Source: an uncultured Pelagibacteraceae bacterium
Lineage (GTDB): Bacteria > Pseudomonadota > Alphaproteobacteria > Pelagibacterales > AG-422-B15
Assembly: GCA_902554325.1 (NCBI GenBank)
Contig: CACDOH010000001.1
Coordinates: 1-64,000 of the forward strand
DNA: 64,000 nt
Direction of reading: 5' to 3'
Shown here: positions 7,905 to 7,947 of the stretch, piece by piece
How positions within the stretch are numbered: the first letter of the stretch is position 1
Layout of the letters: the number at the start of each line of letters is the position of its first letter
The notes under the pieces: model-generated
Told to the model about the DNA's origin: nothing
What the model saw: only the letters and a program-made list of their open reading frames with translations
The model's database searches: none
Program-made: the position numbers and the translations under genes

Positions 7905-7947
7905 GATTCTAAATACTATTGACCTGGATTCTATTTTGAATCATATT
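7905..7947 (+). promoter_or_regulatory. ccrM promoter region with three GANTC methylation sites
   Basis: Three GANTC sites lie just upstream of ccrM: GATTC 7905-7909, GATTC 7927-7931 and GAATC 7938-7942. Their spacing is 22 and 11 bp, about two and one helical turns. A sigma-70-like promoter overlaps them: TTGACC at 7919-7924, a 17-bp spacer and CATATT at 7942-7947. It would start transcription almost at the ATG. Caulobacter ccrM is known to carry GANTC sites in its own promoter/leader and to respond to methylation state; extending that here is inference. Confidence 0.55.

Follow-up and report, generated by a model that had tools for sequence, protein, structure and literature searches.

In 1995, Stephens et al. 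are said to have described two GANTC sites lying 3′ to the promoter of the Caulobacter ccrM gene, which may influence its shut-off. The timing of CcrM is known mainly from Caulobacter, where the gene is driven by CtrA. Methylation control of Caulobacter ccrM is already suspected, on account of sites that lie beyond the core promoter; GANTC methylation affects the ctrA, dnaA, ftsZ and mipZ promoters of this bacterium and, "most probably", that of ccrM (PMC3973325). Furthermore, Caulobacter promoters with a GANTC between the -35 and -10 elements form a distinct timing class (PMC4287350), and among the sigma70 promoters regulated by GcrA and CcrM (ftsZ, mipZ, podJ, ctrA P1), the sites lie between these elements (ftsZ) or are paired (mipZ). 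Own target sites also take part in the control of the methyltransferase genes of the CfrBI and LlaDII restriction-modification systems, which are expressed under the influence of self-methylation or of the enzyme itself, as far as the references in PMC3874152 describe them.

Here we describe a ccrM-like gene found in a stretch of 64,000 nucleotides (hereafter, the window) from a SAR11 (Pelagibacterales) genome. Like its Caulobacter crescentus counterpart, for which methylation control has been proposed (PMC3973325), the gene has GANTC nearby; however, whereas the Caulobacter gene is CtrA-driven and has its sites downstream, the sites of the window are located in the -35/-10 spacer, at about -50 and fused to the -10 element. 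As in CfrBI-type systems, the target site of the enzyme is present in its own core promoter, but compared with what the references in PMC3874152 convey on CfrBI and LlaDII, the enzyme is an orphan without an adjacent endonuclease, and has three sites, kept across families of the class. With the GcrA/CcrM-regulated promoters, the window promoter shares GANTC between -35 and -10, and GcrA is encoded in its genome; unlike in those promoters, the target here is the methyltransferase gene, two sites are held in a fixed geometry class-wide, and there is no association with GcrA. Such a class-wide layout of GANTC fused to the -10 appears to have no prior description in the open-access literature searched. 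It suggests that the enzyme regulates its own synthesis through the marks that it places on DNA, and it is kept across SAR11 and in about 40% of the sampled enzyme-bearing relatives class-wide.

The gene and its promoter

The ccrM product contains PF01555 (N6_N4_Mtase) and C-terminal RAMA (PF18755) domains, aligns over its full length with Caulobacter CcrM, and has CcrM as its best solved-structure match (6pbd, chain 6pbd_A; E = 1e-157, residues 5-365). Given that its score of 614 bits lies below the cut-off of 830 for the NCBI equivalog NF050803 (adenine-specific DNA-methyltransferase CcrM), we refer to the protein as CcrM-like, or a CcrM ortholog in the wider sense. It is a putative GANTC methylase, as indicated indirectly by the depletion of GANTC in the window and by GANTC methylation in Pelagibacter. 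No cognate restriction endonuclease is encoded beside ccrM, the neighbours being a uracil-DNA glycosylase, rnhB and, by inspection, a MutY-like ORF. The latter is convergent with ccrM, and the 3′ ends of the two overlap by 20 bp (window 9033-9052). In another SAR11 genome, ccrM is present as two overlapping matches with internal stops (G022:C6:7293-8388), that is, with a frameshift which is either real or an assembly error.

Table 1 Coordinates of the features of the ccrM locus in the window
Feature	Position	Strand	Remarks
rnhB (ribonuclease HII), upstream neighbour	7280..7885	+	
GANTC site 1 (GATTC, in TTGATTCT)	7905..7909	+	about -50 from predicted start
-35 element TTGACC	7919..7924	+	promoter-like pair with CATATT
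GANTC site A (GATTC)	7927..7931	+	inside -35/-10 spacer
GANTC site B (GAATC)	7938..7942	+	+19 from -35; final C shared with the start of the -10
-10 element CATATT	7942..7947	+	class-wide form C-A-NNN-T
Predicted transcription start	7954..7955	+	at ATG or one base before; from geometry only
ccrM-like orphan adenine DNA methyltransferase	7955..9052	+	365 aa, N6_N4_Mtase and RAMA domains

The gap between rnhB and ccrM is 69 bp long and holds all three GANTC sites (Table 1). As the preliminary description had stated, these fall within 38 bp before ccrM, at spacings of 22 and 11 bp (starting at 7905, 7927 and 7938), and two of them lie between or touch the promoter elements: TTGACC and CATATT form a promoter-like pair on the + strand with a 17-bp spacer, which encloses site A, and site B shares a base with the -10. 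Because site B supplies this first base, the -10 takes the form C-A-NNN-T, with GANTC where an extended -10 would sit. The promoter of the window thus has exactly the geometry found class-wide (see below). The methylatable adenines of site B are at predicted positions -15 (top strand) and -13 (bottom strand), in the region of the major groove where sigma would contact an extended -10, and sigma70 itself may therefore be the reader of the sites. No CtrA box (TTAA-N7-TTAA or TTAACCAT-like) was seen by inspection in the ccrM promoter of the window.

The position of the predicted start makes a leaderless or nearly leaderless mRNA plausible, and the earlier prediction to this effect holds by promoter geometry: 17 out of 18 unique promoters of this genome's family have the ATG 0-1 nt away from the predicted start. 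The ccrM transcript probably starts at the ATG. In the class-wide set of promoters with the same layout, the leader predicted in this way is 0-4 nt in 17 out of 40 cases and at least 17 nt in the remainder.

Abundance of GANTC in the window and in the genome

The window contains 150 GANTC, compared to 222 expected from shuffles, in agreement with the depletion of this sequence already described for CcrM-bearing Alphaproteobacteria (PMC3973325). The preliminary description, which regarded an equal density upstream of other genes as damaging to its proposal, is not contradicted on this point: within 60 bp upstream of the 62 ORFs of the window, 54 lack GANTC, six carry a single site and another carries two, ccrM being the sole ORF with three. 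The triple cluster by itself is ordinary. Under a first-order Markov model, 64 kb would contain 0.63 triples spanning at most 38 bp, and the whole genome contains eight triples with the searched spacing, exactly as many as were obtained with a reversed control pattern; clustering alone was accordingly rejected as evidence. The signal above chance is the placement of the sites on the core promoter, together with its conservation.

A tighter GANTC triple (27 bp), mostly in coding sequence, is present at window 29757-29783. The sole other match to TTGnn-N14-GANTC-A-NNN-T in the window is TTGATCGGGTACAAAATATGATTCAAGTT, at 57299 on the - strand, possibly a second promoter of the same class or a chance match in coding sequence.

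Conservation in SAR11 and across Alphaproteobacteria

Relatives of the same genus retain GANTC at positions near -50, -28 and -17 relative to the ATG. In the other SAR11 family the sequence differs but the plan is the same, for example, TTGACCCAAgaatcTTTTTGgagtcTAAT. The arrangement TTGAC-N3-GANTC-N5-7-GANTC is found again at ccrM all through SAR11. Among 51 unique SAR11 ccrM core promoters, the 25 bp after TTGAC contain at least one GANTC in 47 and at least two in 31, with a mean of 1.53 compared to 0.07 in shuffles. At site A, N takes all four bases, with GA and TC being constant. When 117 SAR11 genomes were searched with the composite pattern TTGAC-N2-5-GANTC-N5-7-GANTC, 87 yielded a match, usually a single one, at ccrM. 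Further SAR11 promoters bearing the same composite were considered and rejected, since the six matches examined outside ccrM all lie inside the coding sequences of metK and rpsA. Within SAR11, the fusion of GANTC to the -10 is a ccrM-specific arrangement, nearly unique to this gene.

The sites have been lost in some lineages. At most one GANTC is left in the core promoter of genera g5 and g8 and one in that of g7, and site A has been lost in individual SAR11 genomes by one or two substitutions. In g5 and g8 (L202, L204, L163-L165, L208), ccrM and GcrA are retained, with most of the core-promoter GANTC being lost; g5 has TTTAGTCTATTC at the position of TGGAGTCTATTC in g8, one base from a site.

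Named loci of other orders have the same layout. The composite was defined on SAR11 and these named loci and, with a few gap widths widened, applied to a separate class-wide sample comprising the ccrM upstream regions of 99 genomes, spread evenly over Alphaproteobacteria and mostly one per family. The 150-bp upstream regions of the 99 genes contain 299 GANTC, compared to 66.7 in shuffled sequences (maximum of 100 shuffles, 83) and to 14-110 occurrences of nine control 5-mers in the same regions; other palindromic 5-mers are not enriched. TTGAC is present in 77 out of 99. The composite was found in 40 and was absent in 59, compared to none in 100 shuffles; at one genome per family, it was found in 31 out of 77. 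The loci with the composite span upstream GC contents of 35-67%.

Counted from where TTGAC starts, site B begins exactly at +19 in 35 of the 40 class-wide composites; it is followed by A-11 in 39 and T-7 in 38. Site A, in turn, floats between +7 and +10, again with a variable N, and the commonest position of the nearest GANTC further upstream is -14 to -16, counted from the start of the -35. Consistently, when 76 promoters were anchored only on TTGAC, GANTC occupied exactly +19 in 38 of them, and the information content in the same alignment was 0.22 at the N of site B, compared to 0.40-0.61 at its G, A, T and C. GACTC and GAATC are favoured over GATTC and GAGTC at this site class-wide. Conservation of the layout, with a fixed geometry and a free N, extends beyond SAR11 to many further families of Alphaproteobacteria. 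The lack of conservation in relatives, which the preliminary description had held to be a possible objection, is therefore not observed in either close or very distant relatives. The helical phasing that it proposed is only approximate: site B is fixed relative to the -10, but site A moves, and with A-B spacings of 9-12 bp across the class strict phasing was rejected. A strict palindrome, GATTC-N6-GAATC, acting as an operator was also rejected; the window contains it, but GAATC...GAATC and different spacings are seen in relatives.

Relationship to GcrA

GcrA is a protein that attaches to sigma region 2 as well as to methylated promoter DNA, including methylated GANTC promoters, and that accelerates the formation of open complexes (PMC7403470, PMC3667746). 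It is encoded in the window's genome (G000:C5:46860-47279, 131 bits) and in 267 out of 297 SAR11 genomes, although it should be noted that calls of presence or absence, for GcrA as well as for CtrA, depend on HMM thresholds and genome completeness. Class-wide, gcrA and ccrM co-occur (both, 89 genomes; ccrM only, 20; gcrA only, 9; neither, 35; p = 1.6e-12), as also published (PMC3885167). The exceptions to the published co-occurrence are 20 ccrM-positive genomes without a GcrA match and nine GcrA-positive genomes without a close CcrM.

The composite itself shows no association with GcrA among the 99 class-wide genomes, being present in eight of 17 GcrA-negative and 32 of 82 GcrA-positive ones (p = 0.59), and several SAR11 genomes without a GcrA match (G050, G028, G081, G090, G102) have kept it. 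GcrA as an obligate partner was rejected on the lack of association, HMM misses and incomplete genomes being possible sources of error in this comparison. The extended GcrA motif YGAKTCK (from PMC7987155) is fit only by site 1 (TGATTCT) and by neither site A nor site B. GcrA is a plausible reader of the sites, but the composite is as frequent without detectable GcrA and is kept in SAR11 genomes without a GcrA match.

Possible control of ccrM by its own product

We consider it probable that the ccrM promoter is a methylation-reading sigma70 core promoter which places the gene under the control of its own product. CcrM would methylate A-15 on the top strand and A-13 on the bottom strand, in the major groove at the contact between sigma and the extended -10, and replication would convert the fully methylated promoter into a hemimethylated one. 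RNA polymerase, alone or with GcrA as a sigma70 cofactor, would sense this change, tying ccrM transcription to the passage of the fork and to the level of CcrM. If the hemimethylated state is on and the fully methylated state off, the outcome would be a pulse of transcription and homeostasis. Methylation autoregulation, as suggested in the preliminary description, is thus partly supported and retained as the best reading of the sequence. Several observations speak against this explanation, namely, the 59 out of 99 class-wide genomes without the composite, the site losses in g5, g7 and g8, and the missing association with GcrA.

As to the sign of the loop, we lean slightly, and with low confidence, towards hemimethylated-on and methylated-off; the opposite sign, with GcrA-driven activation, is nearly as likely. 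In the negative loop, a sub-case of the autoregulation favoured above that we put forward tentatively, full methylation at -15 and -13 would block productive contact with sigma, and the hemimethylated promoter would fire until remethylated. In the cultured Pelagibacter NP1, 99.86% of GANTC sites are fully methylated, and the methylated fraction is lower near the origin, which has been taken as delayed remethylation (PMC9516812) although SAR11 has no detectable canonical CtrA. This delay is better accommodated by negative feedback, as is the control by methylation that has been suspected for ccrM of Caulobacter (PMC3973325). However, most core-promoter GANTC sites have been published as activating (PMC3667746, PMC3708114), which predicts positive feedback, and by analogy with the Caulobacter sites tested between -35 and -10, which mostly activate when methylated, the sign would be opposite to the one we prefer. 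In a positive loop, methylated sites A and B would recruit GcrA-sigma70, with CcrM activating its own gene from a strong promoter of the GcrA regulon. GANTC between -35 and -10 is a GcrA-type position, mutation of GAnTC lowers the activity of such promoters by 60-80% (PMC3667746), and activation by methylation is documented for ftsZ and mipZ (PMC3708114); the prevalence of GcrA in SAR11, its co-occurrence with ccrM, and a -10 that retains only A-11 and T-7, as expected for an activator-dependent promoter, also agree with this loop. Nevertheless, it is possible rather than likely, considering that the composite is not associated with GcrA, that only site 1 fits YGAKTCK, and that, acting alone, such a loop would leave cells locked off upon loss of methylation.

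Alternatively, CcrM protein could bind to the close sites as a repressor, in the style of SsoII or EcoRII, with methylation being incidental; three sites in 38 bp would suit such binding, and DNA methyltransferases that bind their own promoters are known from references in PMC3874152. We find this improbable, since a mobile site A (+7 to +10) and a site B locked to the -10 fit reading by the polymerase better than the spacing of an oligomer; moreover, some such enzymes use a separate regulatory region, as PMC3978073 indicates for SsoII. Also improbable is a coincidental overlap of GANTC with the site of an unrelated regulator or with an element common to sigma70 promoters of Alphaproteobacteria. 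TTGAC and A-11/T-7 are commonplace in promoters, and the class-wide preference at site B for two of the four GANTC variants would be compatible with such an origin; yet N varies between fixed GA and TC, the composite hardly occurs away from ccrM in SAR11, and no enrichment is seen for other palindromic 5-mers. Finally, a chance cluster of sites in AT-rich DNA between two genes, which would be in keeping with the ordinary number of triples in the genome, is negligible as an explanation when set against a geometry conserved in SAR11 and many other families and never reproduced in shuffles. The autoregulatory reading has the practical merit that the layout yields the exact bases to mutate and a fixed geometry for tests with purified polymerase.

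CtrA and two types of ccrM promoters

None of 117 SAR11 genomes has a canonical CtrA above the NF045991 cut-off; in the stricter class search, Caulobacter alone among 14 control genomes passes. The absence from SAR11 agrees with PMC2877005, where the GANTC preceding cell-cycle genes were counted as well and the numbers judged insufficient to derive control. CcrM sites on the -10 of ccrM would offer a CtrA-independent mechanism in some of the most abundant bacteria of the ocean, in which GANTC remethylation appears delayed nonetheless (PMC9516812). A conserved pair of CtrA half-sites (TTAA...TTAA) upstream of ccrM was considered and rejected, as its spacing varies within the genus. A lack of CtrA was likewise rejected as the reason for the layout: the composite is present in 36 out of 73 CtrA-positive genomes but only in four out of 26 CtrA-negative ones (p = 0.002).

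Among 76 named loci outside SAR11, Rhizobiales have the gene in common with the window, but their promoters mostly carry GTAACCAT/TTAACCAT boxes, CtrA-like by resemblance only, in place of GANTC, which is almost absent. Across these loci, one has both the composite and a box, 15 have only the composite, and 36 only a box (p = 1.2e-4, for loci that are not phylogenetically independent). The two layouts of the ccrM promoter are thus almost mutually exclusive among the 76 named loci, and two such promoter types for the same gene provide a basis for comparison. It is conceivable, albeit unlikely, that GANTC fused to the -10 is an epigenetic extended -10 read directly by sigma70 RNA polymerase without GcrA or CtrA, an old and widespread alphaproteobacterial ccrM clock that fires when the fork hemimethylates the promoter, with CtrA control in Rhizobiales and Caulobacterales being a later replacement.

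Upstream of ccrM in Taklimakanibacter and Aestuariivirga (L020 and L024), four GANTC spaced by 10-11 bp lie beside a TTAACCAT box; these regions may be intermediates that link both types of promoter.
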